Assembly (NCBI RefSeq): GCF_009765995.1
Contig: NZ_LMUI01000013.1
Coordinates: forward strand, 100,807-164,806
Length of the DNA: 64,000 nt
Reading direction: 5' to 3'
Origin: Methylocapsa sp. S129
GTDB taxonomy: Bacteria > Pseudomonadota > Alphaproteobacteria > Rhizobiales > Beijerinckiaceae
The notes under the pieces were generated by a model. That model was not told the origin of the DNA. It did no database searches and saw only the letters and a list, made by a program, of their open reading frames with translations. Of the stretch, positions 27,970 through 32,972 are shown one piece after another. Each line of letters begins with the position of its first letter. Position 1 is the stretch's first letter. Position numbers and translations under genes: made by a program.

Positions 27970-28977
27970 TTACTTCCAGCACCGGCCGGAATAATCGATC
28001 GCATAAAGCTCCGGCTTGGCGGCGATGGCGGCCATGCCGACCAGCACAGCGTCGGCATGGGTCACCAGCCGCGTCGGAATGCGGCGCGCCATCGCGTCGA
28101 CCGGGGCCTTGGCCTCGAAGGCGGCGCGAAACGCCTTCTCGTCGAGAAGATCGAGAATGCGCGGCAACACGCCGCCGGACAGCGTGACGCCGCCCGTCGC
28201 GACGAAGGTCACGCCCATGTCGCCGGCAAACCGGGCGATGAGCCGCCAGTAGAGAGCGACCGTCGCCGCCTCGTCGCCCGCGCGATTCTGATGCGCGCGA
28301 TCGACGATCGCCGCCCCATCCAGCCCTTCGGCCGGCTTGCACAGAGACGCCAGCCGCGCCGCATGCAGCCGCACGAGCCCGGGACCGGCCATCACGCTTT
28401 CGGTGGTGACGCGGCCATACACGCGCTCCAGATGCGGCCAGATCGCCGCCTCCTCGTCGTCGATTGGCCCGAAATCAGTATGGCAGGCCTCAGAAGCCAG
28501 CGGCGTATGGCGCCCCGCCGCTTCGACAAGGGCGCCGACGCCAAGGCCAGTGCCGGGCCCCAGAATGACCTGTGGACCGCTGCCGGGAGAAAAGCGCGCC
28601 GGCCCGATCAGCCGCGCCCATTGATCGGGAATGGTCGGCAGCGACAAAGCCTGCGCCTCGAAATCATTGAGCAGCAGCCCCTGGTCGAGGCCGACCGCCT
28701 TGGCGACCTTCGGCCCGTCCATCAGCCATGGCGCGTTGGTGAGCTTGAGCGTGCGCCCATCGACCGGCCCGGCCCCGCAGGCGATGACCGAACGCGGCCG
28801 GGCGCCGAGCTTGGCCGCCGCCGCCTCGATCGCTTCGCCAAGCCCTGGATATTCGTGAGTCTTCAAATGGACCGCCTCGCCCGGAGGCGAATCGGGCGCG
28901 CTCTTCAGGGCGAAGCGCACATTGGTGCCGCCGGTATCGCAGACGAAGATGGGAAAGGGAAAGGATATCGCGCTCAT
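27970..28977 (-). CDS. glk: glucokinase
   Basis: Phosphorylates glucose with ATP in the cytosol. From ATG 28977 it has 335 residues. The phosphate-binding CDTGGTNVRFAL lies near residues 10-21, the glucose-contact region LNDFEAQALSLP near 100-111, GPGTGLGVGALVE near 140-152, EACHTDFGP near 165-173 and VATGGVTLSGGVLPRI in the C-terminal half. This is the E. coli-type Glk family. Upstream in-frame codons allow a slightly longer protein, but they give no family sequence. It converges with the NTF2-like gene. Confidence 0.93.
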   Translation of the reverse strand: MSAISFPFPIFVCDTGGTNVRFALKSAPDSPPGEAVHLKTHEYPGLGEAIEAAAAKLGARPRSVIACGAGPVDGRTLKLTNAPWLMDGPKVAKAVGLDQGLLLNDFEAQALSLPTIPDQWARLIGPARFSPGSGPQVILGPGTGLGVGALVEAAGRHTPLASEACHTDFGPIDDEEAAIWPHLERVYGRVTTESVMAGPGLVRLHAARLASLCKPAEGLDGAAIVDRAHQNRAGDEAATVALYWRLIARFAGDMGVTFVATGGVTLSGGVLPRILDLLDEKAFRAAFEAKAPVDAMARRIPTRLVTHADAVLVGMAAIAAKPELYAIDYSGRCWK

Positions 28978-29081
28978 GGCGCCATTCACAGGAAAGGAGG
29001 GGCCGGCGTCAAGATGCCGGCTGGCGCGCGCTGTCGGACGCAAAATGATTTACGCTCGCGCCAGGAGGCGAATCGCGCGCG

Positions 29082-29231
29082 ATGGACAAGCTAGGTTTCT
29101 ACGAATTCTTCTGCGGCGGCGGCATGGCGCGCCGAGCGAACCATTCAACTCGCGCATCGGTGCAACTCGAATGGAATATCGGCGAAGACGATTGCTTATC
29201 CAATTTACCGCCTGTAAAGAACGAAGAGTGA
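29082..29231 (+). pseudogene. N-terminal stub of an older C5-cytosine DNA methyltransferase
   Basis: ATG 29082, preceded by a good AGGAGG site at 29063-29068, encodes MDKLGFYEFFCGGGMARR. This is the SAM-binding motif I region of Dcm-type enzymes, and the family normally continues with AGLG. Here the reading changes at once to unrelated sequence and stops after 49 codons. The downstream intact methyltransferase at 29389 has the same motif (FCEFFAGGGMARAGLG). The stretch GGCGGCGGCATGGCGCGC (29115-29132) matches 17 of 18 bases at 29422-29439, so recombination could have occurred there. The presumed matching C-terminal stub lies at 31196-31381. Confidence 0.72.
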
Positions 29232-29388
29232 ACCTGTTCGGCGCTCACTGAGTCGATTTGCCGATCGACTGTTTGTTGCCGTCGTACGCCATCCACAGAA
29301 GAGTCACACCAATCCTACGAACTCGGAGAAGGGCAGTTTCGAAAGTTAGCCGCTCACTCTAGTCTCGGATCGGGAGACGGTCGTCGAC

Positions 29389-30564
29389 ATGGCCCAATTT
29401 ACATTTTGCGAATTTTTTGCTGGCGGCGGTATGGCGCGCGCCGGGCTCGGTGTTTCATGGCGCTGCCTGTTCGCCAACGACTTCGACGAGATGAAAGTAT
29501 CGACCTACGAGGCCAATTGGGGTTGCGGGGACATTAAGCACGGCGATGTCGCCAAGCTTACGCTAGCCGACCTGCCAGCCAAGACCGTCGACCTTTCATG
29601 GGCGTCATTTCCCTGCCAAGATCTTTCGCTCGCTGGCGACTATCGAGGCCTCGGTCGCGAGCGCGACGACGCCAAGACGCGGTCCGGAACGTTTTGGCCG
29701 TTCTGGAAGCTGATGCGTGGCCTCGTTCAAGACGGCCGCGCCCCACGCGCCATCGTTCTTGAGAATGTCTACGGTTGCTTGACCTCCCACGGCGGCAAGG
29801 ACTTTGCCGCAATCGCTTCGGCCCTTTCGGGATCGGATTACCGTTTCGGAGCTGTGGTGATCAACGCGGCTCATTTCGTCCCGCAGTCGCGCCCGCGCGT
29901 ATTCTTCATCGCTATCCGCAAGGGTGAGACGATCCCGGAAGGGCTCACAACCGAGGGTCCGCAGCGGAGCTGGCATCCGGCGTCGCTCCTCGGAGCGCAT
30001 GCCGCAATGACCGACGAAGCGAAGAGAAAATGGGTTTGGTGGAACGTCCCGATGCCCGCCGTCCGAAATATGGTCTTCGCGGACCTTATTGAAGAGAATC
30101 CGACAAGCGTGAAATGGCATAATGCCGCCGAAACTAAGTACCTGCTCGGGCTGATGTCGCCATTGAACCGCGATAAGGTTGCGAACGCCAGAAAATCCGG
30201 GCGCCGTATAGTGGGCGCAATCTACAGACGCACACGTCCCGATGAAAAAGGCATCAAGCGCCAGCGCGCGGAAGTCCGCTTCGACGATATCTCCGGATGC
30301 CTGCGCACGCCAGCAGGCGGCTCTTCTCGCCAAACCATTCTCGTGGTCGAAGGCAAGACGATACGTTCGCGACTCTTATCATCTCGCGAAGCAGCGCGGC
30401 TTATGGGGTTGAATGACGACTACTTGCTTCCTGCACGTTACAACGAAGCTTATCATGTGTGTGGCGACGGGGTTTGCGTGCCCGTGGTGCGGCACCTCGC
30501 GGAGCGCGTTCTAGAACCGATGTTGGCGACAAATCGAGCAGAAGAATTAATCGCGGCGGAGTAG
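29389..30564 (+). CDS. C5-cytosine DNA methyltransferase of a restriction-modification module
   Basis: A 391-residue Dcm-type enzyme. Motif I is FCEFFAGGGMARAGLG near residues 4-19, motif IV SFPCQDLSLAGDYRGLG near 80-96 with the catalytic Cys, motif VI LENVYG near 125 and motif VIII QSRPRVFF near 165. Motifs IX/X (LSSREAARLMGLNDDY, GDGVCVPVVRHLAERVLEP) close the C-terminus. It methylates the fifth carbon of cytosine in a short site and should protect DNA from the nuclease four bases downstream. Codon use and base composition are visibly less GC-biased than in flanking genes, suggesting recent transfer. Confidence 0.93.
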   Translation: MAQFTFCEFFAGGGMARAGLGVSWRCLFANDFDEMKVSTYEANWGCGDIKHGDVAKLTLADLPAKTVDLSWASFPCQDLSLAGDYRGLGRERDDAKTRSGTFWPFWKLMRGLVQDGRAPRAIVLENVYGCLTSHGGKDFAAIASALSGSDYRFGAVVINAAHFVPQSRPRVFFIAIRKGETIPEGLTTEGPQRSWHPASLLGAHAAMTDEAKRKWVWWNVPMPAVRNMVFADLIEENPTSVKWHNAAETKYLLGLMSPLNRDKVANARKSGRRIVGAIYRRTRPDEKGIKRQRAEVRFDDISGCLRTPAGGSSRQTILVVEGKTIRSRLLSSREAARLMGLNDDYLLPARYNEAYHVCGDGVCVPVVRHLAERVLEPMLATNRAEELIAAE

Positions 30565-30567
30565 GGA

Positions 30568-31149
30568 ATGGCGATAGACCTAGCCTTCCGAAGCAAGGCA
30601 GTTCGTACGCTCACAAACGAAATCGGCTGTTATGTTCTTTGCGATCTCGATCAGGTGCCTATCTATGTCGGGCAGTCTGTCGATGGTATCCGCGCCCGAG
30701 TAAATCGACATCTCACATCAGCTAGGAGCGACATCATCGCGAACCGGCAAGTCGACGTGTGGGAGATCGCCTGGGTCTGGGCTTACCCTGTCGGAAACAG
30801 GGCGGATATAGGCGCCGTCGAGGACGCGCTTTTTCATGAGTTCCACGCTCGGTCTGCTCTTATGAATGGCAAAGTGCCGAAGCTACCGCCACGGAGGACA
30901 AGAGTACCGGAGCCGACTCAGAAAATTCAAGTGATGGCGAACGCTGAAATTAAGGAAAAGAAAGACCCGGCGCTACGCCTCCCACGCCAAGCTGAGCACT
31001 ATCGCCAGATCGTGGGCCACTTTCTGGCAGTGAAGAACTCCAAGGAAATCGCGGTCGCTATCCAAGCACACTTTCAACGGCTCCAGAAGTACCACCGAGA
31101 GCTACTTGGCCTTGCCAGGGAGGTAGAAGGCGATAGCGGCGACGACTAA
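30568..31149 (+). CDS. GIY-YIG family nuclease, probable restriction endonuclease
   Basis: A 193-residue protein. The GIY-YIG core starts near residue 19: GCYVLCDLDQVPIYVGQS supplies the two tyrosine strands, then an arginine-rich helix (IRARVNRHLTS). GAVEDALFHEFHARSALMNGK carries the glutamate that binds metal and the terminal asparagine. The C-terminal 80 residues are helical and basic, perhaps for DNA recognition. It sits three bases after the methyltransferase gene and would cut its unmethylated site. GIY-YIG restriction enzymes (Eco29kI, Hpy188I type) are the closest functional models. The gene shares the lower-GC character of its partner. Confidence 0.82.
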   Translation: MAIDLAFRSKAVRTLTNEIGCYVLCDLDQVPIYVGQSVDGIRARVNRHLTSARSDIIANRQVDVWEIAWVWAYPVGNRADIGAVEDALFHEFHARSALMNGKVPKLPPRRTRVPEPTQKIQVMANAEIKEKKDPALRLPRQAEHYRQIVGHFLAVKNSKEIAVAIQAHFQRLQKYHRELLGLAREVEGDSGDD

Positions 31150-31195
31150 AGCGTGGAACTACTCGGAGGTGAGCCTGATAACGTTACAATCCTGA

Positions 31196-31381
31196 GTGGC
31201 GCTCTTGTTTATGACATCTGACGTTTATGAGCCCGCGCTGCGGGCTAAGGTTTTCGAAACCATCCTCATCGGCGACGGAGTCGCGGCACCGTTCGGGCGT
31301 TTCTTGAGCGACTTGCTTCTTCCGCTAACTAGGGCGCGAAGCGAAGCCAAAAGGGAACCGACGCGCGGCCCGCCCGCATGA
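31196..31381 (+). pseudogene. C-terminal stub of the older cytosine methyltransferase
   Basis: The frame ending at TGA 31379-31381 reads GDGVAAPFGRFLSDLLLPLT. This aligns with the C-terminal motif of Dcm enzymes, such as GDGVCVPVVRHLAERVLEPM of the intact neighbour. It lacks everything upstream and begins in the spacer after the nuclease gene, near 31226. It overlaps the vsr start by four bases (ATGA), as an intact dcm-vsr pair would. Some short protein may still be made from the GTG at 31196, but catalytic motifs are absent. Confidence 0.65.
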
Positions 31382-31809
31382 GGGCCGCGGGCAAACCCAC
31401 TGCGGAGCGCTCCGCGATCATGCGCGCCGTCAAGTCGCGCGACACGGCGCCCGAGCTTATGCTGCGCACAATGCTGCGCAGCATAAAGCCGGGCTATCGG
31501 CTGCATCGAGCCGATCTGCCGGGCAAGCCCGATATCGTCTATGGCCCGCGCCGCCTCGCCATTTTCATGCATGGCTGCTTCTGGCACGGCCATGATTGCA
31601 AGCGCGGCGCCCGTGCGCCAAAAGACAACGCCGCCTATTGGAGCGCCAAGATCGCCAGAAATCGCGCGCGCGACGCGACCCATCTCAAAGCACTGGCGGC
31701 GCTCGGCTGGCGCACGCTCGTCGTGTTCGAATGCGCGCTGAAGGACAAGCCGGCGCTCGAACGCCGTTTGCGGGATGCCCTGGAGGCCGGCGAAGGAGGT
31801 CAGCGATGA
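31378..31809 (+). CDS. vsr: very short patch repair endonuclease
   Basis: Nicks DNA 5' of T in T:G mismatches left by deamination of 5-methylcytosine. It has 143 residues with all family marks: RSAIMRAVKSRDTAPELMLR near residues 11-30, the metal-binding Asp in LPGKPDIVY, the catalytic and zinc-site cluster FMHGCFWHGHDC, then NAAYWSAKIARNRARD and a C-terminal LGWRTLVVFECAL strand pair. Vsr genes accompany cytosine methyltransferases. This one overlaps the C-terminal stub of the old methyltransferase, not the new one, and also overlaps the acyl-CoA dehydrogenase gene by four bases. Confidence 0.93.
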   Translation: MRAAGKPTAERSAIMRAVKSRDTAPELMLRTMLRSIKPGYRLHRADLPGKPDIVYGPRRLAIFMHGCFWHGHDCKRGARAPKDNAAYWSAKIARNRARDATHLKALAALGWRTLVVFECALKDKPALERRLRDALEAGEGGQR

Positions 31810-32972
31810 AGGAACAGGCCGACGCCGAAACGGCGCCACGCAGCCCGTTTTATGGCCCCGAGCACGAGGCGTTCCGTCATTCCATCCGCCGCTTCGTCGC
31901 CCGCGAGATCGAGCCCTATGCGACGCAATGGGACGAGGCCGGAGAATTTCCGCGCGATCTTTATTTGAAGGCCGGCGAGATCGGTTATCTCGGCCTTGGC
32001 TATCCCTCGGAATATGGCGGGTCCGAAGGCGATCGCTTCATGACGATCCTTGCGATGCAAGAACTCGCGCGCGCCGGCTCGGGAGGCGTTTGCGCCGGTC
32101 TGTTCAGCCATGCCATCGCGGCGCCGCCCATTCTGCGGCGCGGCTCGCCGGAAATGAAGGCGCGCGTGCTGCCGCAAATCCTGTCGGGCCAAAAGATCGC
32201 CGCGCTCGCCATCACCGAGCCGAGCGGCGGCTCGGATGTCGCCAATTTGCGCACGACAGCCCGGCGCGAGGGCGATCATTATATCGTCAACGGCTCCAAG
32301 ACTTTCATCACCTCGGGCATGCGCGCCGATTTCCTCACCGTCGCAGCGCGCACGGGGGGAACCGGCGCCGGCGGCATCAGCCTGCTGCTGATCGAGGGGA
32401 ATACGCCCGGCCTGCAGCGCACGCCGCTCGCCAAAATGGGCTGGTGGGCGTCCGACACCGCGACCCTCTATTTCGACAACTGCCGCGTGCCCGCCGCCAA
32501 CCTCATCGGCGAAGAAAGCAGCGGCTTCAAGACGATCATGCTCAATTTCAACGATGAGCGCCTGAACGGCTCGGCGTTCTGCAACGCTTTCTCGCGCGTC
32601 TGCCTGGATGAGGCGATCGCCTATTCCAAACAGCGCGTGACCTTCGGCAAGCCGCTGTCGCATCATCAGGTCATCCGGCATAAACTGGTCGATATGGCGC
32701 AGCGCGTCGCGGCGACGCAGGCCATGCTCGAACTGCTCACCTGGCGCGTCGAGCAGGGCGAAAATCCAGTCGCCGAAATCTGCATGCTCAAGAACCAGGC
32801 GACGCAGACCATGGCCTTTTGCGCATCGGAGGGCGTGCAGATATTCGGCGGCGCCGGCTTTTTGCGCGGCGCCAAGGTCGAGCGCATCTATCGCGAAGTG
32901 AAGGTCAATGCGATCGGCGCAGGAACCGAGGAGATCATGAAGGAGCTCGCCAGCCGACAAATGGGGATTTGA
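31806..32972 (+). CDS. acyl-CoA dehydrogenase
   Basis: A 388-residue FAD enzyme that makes the trans-2 double bond in acyl-CoA. The N-terminal helical domain has [21 protein letters not shown]. The beta-barrel has [22 protein letters not shown] and the C-terminal bundle has [31 protein letters not shown] and [14 protein letters not shown]. The position of the catalytic Glu in medium-chain enzymes reads Ala in IGAGT, as in isovaleryl-CoA and long-chain dehydrogenases that use a Glu elsewhere. ATG 31806 overlaps the vsr stop, so it is now coupled to vsr. Electrons would go to ETF. The acyl chain is unknown. Confidence 0.93.

Follow-up and report, generated by a model that had tools for sequence, protein, structure and literature searches.

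The stretch of DNA analysed here (the window) comprises 64,000 nucleotides from the 6.87 Mb genome of Methylocapsa sp. S129 (NZ_LMUI01000013.1, positions 100,807 to 164,806), whose genus includes Roseiarcus fermentans, and it holds a dcm-vsr locus in which the interior of the methylase gene dcm has given way to another methyltransferase gene and a GIY-YIG nuclease gene. Between a divergent glk-like glucokinase gene (27970-28977, minus strand), whose orthologue adjoins a dcm or methyltransferase gene in eight of ten genus relatives and thus marks the site, and an acyl-CoA dehydrogenase gene, the plus strand carries, in this order, the start of dcm (29082-29132), a leader of 256 bp (29133-29388), an intact C5-cytosine methyltransferase gene (29389-30564, 391 residues), the GIY-YIG gene (30568-31149, 193 residues), a C-terminal piece of dcm (31196-31381) and an intact vsr gene (31378-31809, 143 residues). 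An initial annotation, made from the letters alone, had placed the two dcm pieces and the methyltransferase, GIY-YIG and vsr reading frames, and all its coordinates agreed on recheck. In the following, type A denotes loci with the order dcm-vsr and type B loci with the order methyltransferase-GIY-vsr; the two dcm pieces of the window are remnants of a resident type A gene, and the leader, methyltransferase and nuclease genes make up an incoming type B module.

The three intact proteins are readily classified. The methyltransferase matches PF00145 over nearly its full length (E 4.9e-44) and contains both FAGGG (motif I) and FPCQ (motif IV), as befits a C5-cytosine DNA methyltransferase, while the GIY protein matches PF01541 above the gathering score (E 3.5e-5). 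The vsr product matches TIGR00632 above its cut-off (E 3e-39) and Escherichia coli Vsr (1cw0, E 1.4e-27), and its alignment with the latter retains the active-site residues E, D, H, H and D of a Vsr protein (residue roles as given in an excerpt of PMC12907096).

The start fragment (ATG at 29082) spans 17 codons, reads MDKLGFYEFFCGGGMAR and is divergent after that. Its motif I, FYEFFCGGGMAR, is identical at 12 of 12 positions to three genus type A Dcm proteins (L038, L039, L046) and at 11 of 12 to the other two, as opposed to 10 of 12 in all six type B proteins, the adjacent one included, and its DNA is identical to that of L038 at 36 of 38 positions (94.7% over 38 bp). The end fragment, GDGVAAPFGRFLSDLLLPL, agrees at 12-16 of 19 positions with four glk-linked type A C-termini (one gap allowed), against 8-11 of 19 in type B and 10 of 19 in a fifth type A protein (L044); in tblastn against the loci then compared, it matched at E 6e-8 over 46 residues (L005) and E 6e-7 over 51 residues (L011). 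Homology to type A DNA runs from near the start of glk across the intergenic region and ends at 29131-29132; it resumes at about 31259 by blastn, or at about 31196-31223 by protein and aligned DNA, is clear from about 31223-31259, and continues in frame to the end of the piece. We estimate that about 2.06 kb now stand where dcm lost some 0.9-1.0 kb. The initial annotation had proposed that a complete restriction-modification module invaded, or recombined with, a solitary dcm-vsr pair and left vsr intact. That a foreign module of methyltransferase and GIY-YIG genes broke a resident pair, here one linked to glk, is borne out by homology, trees, composition and the layouts of relatives: both fragments align with type A over type B, the segment 31226-31350 that it singled out does align with Dcm C-termini, and the C-terminal open reading frame overlaps vsr by four bases (ATGA), as it had noted.

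Ten genus relatives were searched, and the uninterrupted dcm-vsr that the initial annotation had looked to relatives for does exist at this position. In four genomes (G002, G003, G006, G010), glk is divergent from an uninterrupted type A dcm with vsr behind it, and in four others (G001, G004, G005, G007) it is divergent from a type B set; the contigs of G003 and G007 stop within vsr. Roseiarcus fermentans DSM 24875 is of type B. A type A dcm-vsr pair also occurs in G008, on a contig without a glk match, and in G009 the type B methyltransferase lacks a GIY partner and stands some 10 kb away from vsr, glk being on a separate contig. In this last genome several large open reading frames separate the methyltransferase from vsr (L045, 2268-13640), and the operon looks broken apart.

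Trees separate the history of the methylase from that of its neighbour. In a tree of 24 Vsr proteins, from which partial sequences of up to 100 residues (that of G003 among them) and the protein of L122 were left out, the ten genus sequences of both types form one clade with one family member (98/98), and none of 200 bootstrap trees unites either type A or type B in one clade. In the tree of 36 methyltransferases, on the other hand, the genus type B proteins form one clade (100/99), nested within a clade (97/90) with three GIY-linked enzymes from Sphingomonadaceae and Rhodobacteraceae, and the genus type A proteins fall into a fork of ten (85/93) that also takes in family relatives with a dcm-vsr pair. 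As the methyltransferase tree splits the two types while vsr intermixes them, vsr is the resident and the methylase was swapped. This swap probably happened more than once: in the glk tree, the window groups with three type A genomes (97/96) and G007 (type B) pairs with G008 (type A; 100/100). On our reading, at least three swaps are needed if type A is ancestral; the program, with the window unlabelled, counts two.

Base composition follows the same division. The G+C content (GC) is 0.569 in 29133-31195, against 0.654 in 29000-29132 and 0.656 in 31226-31809, in agreement with the lower GC of the inserted segment remarked on in the initial annotation. Calculated for whole genes, GC in the window is 0.589 for the methyltransferase, 0.552 for GIY and 0.662 for vsr, and the methyltransferase lies below the vsr of its own locus in six of six type B loci and above it in five of five type A loci. 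At third codon positions (GC3), it lies 0.11-0.30 below vsr in four type B loci (window, L040, L041, L045); because GC3 fails to separate all loci, the argument from composition uses whole-gene values.

The repeat of motif I in which the initial annotation saw a likely crossover point is real, with 17 of 18 bases shared between 29115-29132 and 29422-29439, embedded in a 36-nucleotide pair of 78% identity. A simple crossover at this point would have fused the two copies, and since both are kept, 307 bp apart and with the module's own leader and its SOS box between them, we reject this part of the proposal. The type B locus L043 (G007) was considered as a clean motif I crossover from type A and was discarded, its leader having no match to that of its sister L044. 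No type A dcm homology was found in the leader of the window, and a search for a donor of the gap at 31150-31195 gave no match.

Type A and type B methyltransferases very likely share their target sequence. The segments between YRRTRP and GGSSRQ, which, from what is known of HhaI, we take to be the target-recognition loops, are on average 70% identical between the two types, compared with 57% for the core, 31% for the linker and 52% for the C-terminal part, and it is because the loops are more alike than the catalytic cores that we think the target is shared. The loops of the window enzyme are 68% identical to those of type A, and CLRTPxGGSSRQ is exact in 32 of 35 aligned methyltransferases, with one residue off in each of L048, L019 and the Paenibacillus protein L122. 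A PDB search aligned the flanking motifs with HhaI, and not the loops. If specificity was kept in this way, Vsr would still serve the old sites, and the suggestion of the initial annotation that it may now serve a different one is disfavoured.

The GIY protein belongs to the GIY-YIG nuclease superfamily by its domain, its catalytic Y, R, E and N residues and its match to the UvrC-domain fold. Residues Y22, Y33, R44, H48, E85 and N100 are invariant in 19 of 19 aligned homologues, and its tyrosines, R-x3-H and E and N positions follow what we take to be the pattern of the Eco29kI family. Its AlphaFold model has a predicted local distance difference test score of 88, the closest fold among the Foldseek matches listed (50 of 96) is the UvrC nuclease domain (E 7e-4), and the same domain is the single match of a PDB profile search (E 0.004); no similarity of the Eco29kI or Hpy188I type appears among the PDB sequence matches or the Foldseek matches listed. 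By its genetic company, it is likely a restriction enzyme. Of the 30 GIY loci with a visible neighbourhood, a count that takes in L123, L118 and L161, 29 have methyltransferase sequence no more than 1 kb away, and in 28 the methyltransferase is full-length. The exceptions are L118, where a methyltransferase fragment lies about 1.3 kb off and the GIY gene is truncated as well, and L161, to which we return below.

The module is rare and appears mobile. Its 193-residue GIY protein occurs in four of 385 sampled genomes of the class, the window genome counted, and a search of the latter found no second copy of the module segment. Matches were obtained on ten plasmid records, two of them (pMEA05 and pKB14400_4) at 65-67% identity, and the module is also present on Burkholderia phage AH2, near an integrase gene. 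On the phage, an 855-bp gene (gp34; L172, 4134-4988) stands between the methyltransferase and GIY genes.

The leader contains, upstream of the methyltransferase gene, an exact copy of the alphaproteobacterial LexA operator GAAC-N7-GAAC, GAACGAAGAGTGAAC (29219-29233), with two mismatches to the box before the genome's own lexA gene (GAACACAGAGTGAAC). We take this motif to be the SOS box of the genus because it precedes lexA and recA, being found upstream of 11 of 11 lexA and six of seven recA genes found there. It recurs in the leaders of three type B relatives, with which the window leader shares, by eye, an ATCCACA block. Boxes were scored over 350 bp ahead of each methyltransferase, in 28 loci linked to GIY and 15 that lack it, using a first-order Markov null; L123, which has 36 bp of upstream DNA, and L118, which has a methyltransferase fragment, did not enter the count, L161 entered it with its broken methyltransferase, four loci (L109, L111, L124, L155) have no methyltransferase on their stretch, duplicates (L153, L154) and second copies of Roseiarcus loci (L101-L103, L106) were not recounted, and L051, with a divergent GIY protein (27% identity), was placed in the group without GIY. 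An exact box precedes 14 of the 28 GIY-linked methyltransferases, where 0.30 are expected (P 3e-21), and none of the 15 others, where 0.17 are expected (Fisher 6e-4 between the sets); without the four loci that prompted the idea, the counts are 10 of 24 and 0 of 15 (one-sided P 0.003), all of these P values being optimistic since the scored loci are related. In ten of the 14 loci, no more than 170 bp separate the start from the nearest box, and in four the distance is greater; on the two plasmids, where GIY comes first, the box stands between GIY and the methyltransferase. This suggests that the module is turned up by DNA damage through LexA. A scan of ten box-less loci for SOS operators of other phyla gave a single core, GAAC-N4-GTTC, which lies upstream of the methyltransferase gene in Paenibacillus; L105 has two loose matches to CTG-N10-CAG, and these were not counted. 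The Paenibacillus motif (L122, 6774-6785) lies between divergent methyltransferase and vsr genes and is the core of the Gram-positive SOS operator. Among the matches listed from the open-access literature, excerpts of PMC4081073, PMC10855626, PMC3874152, PMC1839093 and PMC10471985 included, there is no report of SOS boxes on methyltransferase-GIY modules.

Parts of this arrangement are familiar from known systems. As in E. coli dcm-vsr and Caulobacter ScmA/VsrA, the resident order is dcm followed by vsr, and the active-site residues of E. coli Vsr are kept; unlike in these pairs, the methylase partner has been replaced here while vsr has not moved. In Caulobacter, loss of the solitary C5 methylase triggers an SOS response that depends on the Vsr-like protein, and vsrA is itself damage-inducible; the same report suggests that vsr genes may stabilise methylases and mentions Neisseria vsr genes adjoining methylases that are sometimes truncated (PMC12907096, in excerpt). 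A methyltransferase gene beside a GIY-YIG nuclease gene is also the layout of the Type II systems Eco29kI, Cfr42I and Hpy188I (PMC4081073, in excerpt), from which the present module differs in that it has no sequence match to them, UvrC as nearest listed fold, an SOS box, frequent company of Vsr and a cleavage activity that is putative. The cassettes of phage AH2, pMEA05 and pKB14400_4 share the GIY family (65-69% identity), the methyltransferase family and Vsr, and the window differs from them in lacking gp34 and in not having GIY first. The best PADLOC model for the window methyltransferase is DruM2/DruM of Druantia type II (PDLC00028, E 3.5e-167); the two downstream neighbour proteins match no Druantia model, the wider window not having been scanned for DruE, DruF or DruG.

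We consider it probable, as an explanation of the whole, that a module took over a resident dcm with Vsr retained and the target unchanged, and that it is under SOS control and restricts DNA. Originally, the neighbour of glk was a solitary type A dcm with vsr behind it, a state preserved in relatives within the genus. A mobile type B module of LexA-box leader, methyltransferase and GIY-YIG gene then replaced the interior of dcm, the step to which homology, trees and composition speak directly, leaving as scars the first 17 and roughly the last 50-60 codons, with vsr in place. Given their recognition loops, the old and the new enzyme very likely methylate the same sequence, in which case the chromosome would already have been protected when the nuclease arrived, the old dcm would have become redundant, and Vsr would continue to repair deaminated 5-methylcytosine at the old sites. 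Judging by its motif, its association with the module and the match to the lexA and recA operators, the LexA box would repress the module and raise it after DNA damage. Finally, and this is the weakest step, the nuclease probably cuts DNA without the methylation, which would amount to restriction. What is new here is the SOS box, together with the recurrent replacement of a methylase by one that shares its recognition loops, with vsr spared.

Several observations weigh against this explanation. As to the history, no repeat or crossover was found that explains the breakpoints; the leader at 29133-29388 gave no blastn match at E 1 among the loci compared, so that no donor was found for it; the GC3 gap of the type B loci L037 and L043, at 0.01-0.02, does not exceed that of type A; glk, as a flank of the site, could itself have been exchanged; and several nodes of the LexA/RecA tree have weak support (51-66%). 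As to the regulation, the box is absent from 14 of the 28 GIY loci, the genus member L043 among them; TTGACA precedes it in three relatives and, by eye, not in the window leader; and a promoter scan of 28900-31900 found none. As to restriction, a comparison of six GIY-holding genomes with six that do not hold it (a 20-kb sample of G371, L222, being left out of the count) shows no consistent depletion of any palindromic 4- or 6-mer, and in L161 (G371:C100, 2760-3621) full-length GIY and Vsr genes adjoin a methyltransferase of the same family that has lost residues ~26-102 and carries a frameshift, which argues against restriction unless another methylase protects the cell or the draft assembly is wrong there. 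That the two fragments belong to the type B module, as a duplicated motif I leader and a downstream peptide, and are no dcm remnants would fit the conservation of motif I in all aligned methyltransferases and the 17 bases shared by its two copies; yet both fragments match type A over type B, four type B relatives at the site have some 109-212 bp between glk and the methyltransferase, GIY and vsr are separated there by a few tens of bp at the most, neither gap shows a fragment, and the first fragment keeps a dcm-like spacing from glk as the second keeps the ATGA overlap, all of which leaves this origin very improbable.

The history given above would hold equally if the GIY-YIG protein were a UvrC-like repair nuclease, working with the methyltransferase and Vsr in an SOS-induced operon for the repair of 5-methylcytosine damage. 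Both its nearest listed fold and its PDB profile match are the UvrC nuclease domain, half of the scored modules have an SOS box and 17 of 28 have Vsr within about 2.5 kb, L161 has kept GIY and Vsr beside a broken methyltransferase, sites are not avoided, and a UvrC-like protein with an SOS box has been reported in Caulobacter (PMC1839093, in excerpt). Nevertheless, the nearly constant methyltransferase within 1 kb and the carriage by plasmids and a phage resemble a restriction-modification module, vsr is missing from the stretch examined in 11 of the 28 scored modules, and genuine restriction enzymes also use GIY-YIG active sites (PMC4081073, in excerpt), for which reasons we regard a repair function as unlikely, though one to be reckoned with. 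Somewhat less likely still, the association with LexA boxes could be a by-product, the boxes serving another gene or regulator and the module escaping SOS control in this strain: the leader has no recognisable promoter, the box lies between 23 and 274 bp from the start, depending on the locus, with the nearest box more than 170 bp away in four of 14 loci, and the window box overlaps the stop codon of the dcm-remnant reading frame. Against this, four type A leaders with the same divergent glk have no box, and the box recurs in distant alphaproteobacteria, on plasmids and on a viral contig.

Beyond this locus, it is conceivable, if doubtful, that a LexA-controlled, mobile family of methyltransferase and GIY-YIG pairs spreads by taking over solitary methylase loci of its own specificity, where host methylation would leave its nuclease no target and the resident Vsr, harmful without methylation, would select for one methylase at the site. 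SOS control would in that case correspond, for a Type II system, to restriction alleviation, or would serve as a defence triggered by damage. The locus displays a methylase swap with its scars still visible, the remnants revealing the earlier gene and relatives showing the earlier and the completed states. It thereby makes two questions testable, namely whether a solitary host methylase eases the entry of a restriction module of the same specificity and whether the presence of Vsr obliges a genome to retain a methylase that matches it, as in the Caulobacter model (PMC12907096, in excerpt).

Some further observations concern the surroundings of the locus and the genomes compared. The acyl-CoA dehydrogenase gene (31806-32972) overlaps the end of vsr. 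In five draft-genome relatives, its close orthologues and vsr are on different contigs, so the region to the right of the site has perhaps been rearranged. The window genome has two further vsr-like genes (G000:C59:188931-189326 and G000:C27:174214-174594; L054 and L055), one with an internal TAG and the other adjoining a distant methyltransferase. Target-site inference from palindrome avoidance was dropped for want of a consistent motif. In 304 kb of the window genome (L173-L184 and the window), CAGCTG is found twice where 39.6 are expected, and CTCGAG (40 of 138 expected) and AGATCT (22 of 67) are also strongly avoided, a hint that the genome has further restriction systems. In the GIY-holding G212 (L213-L217), GGCGCC has an observed-to-expected ratio of 0.07 (48 expected), and GCCGGC, GAWTC and GASTC are also low.

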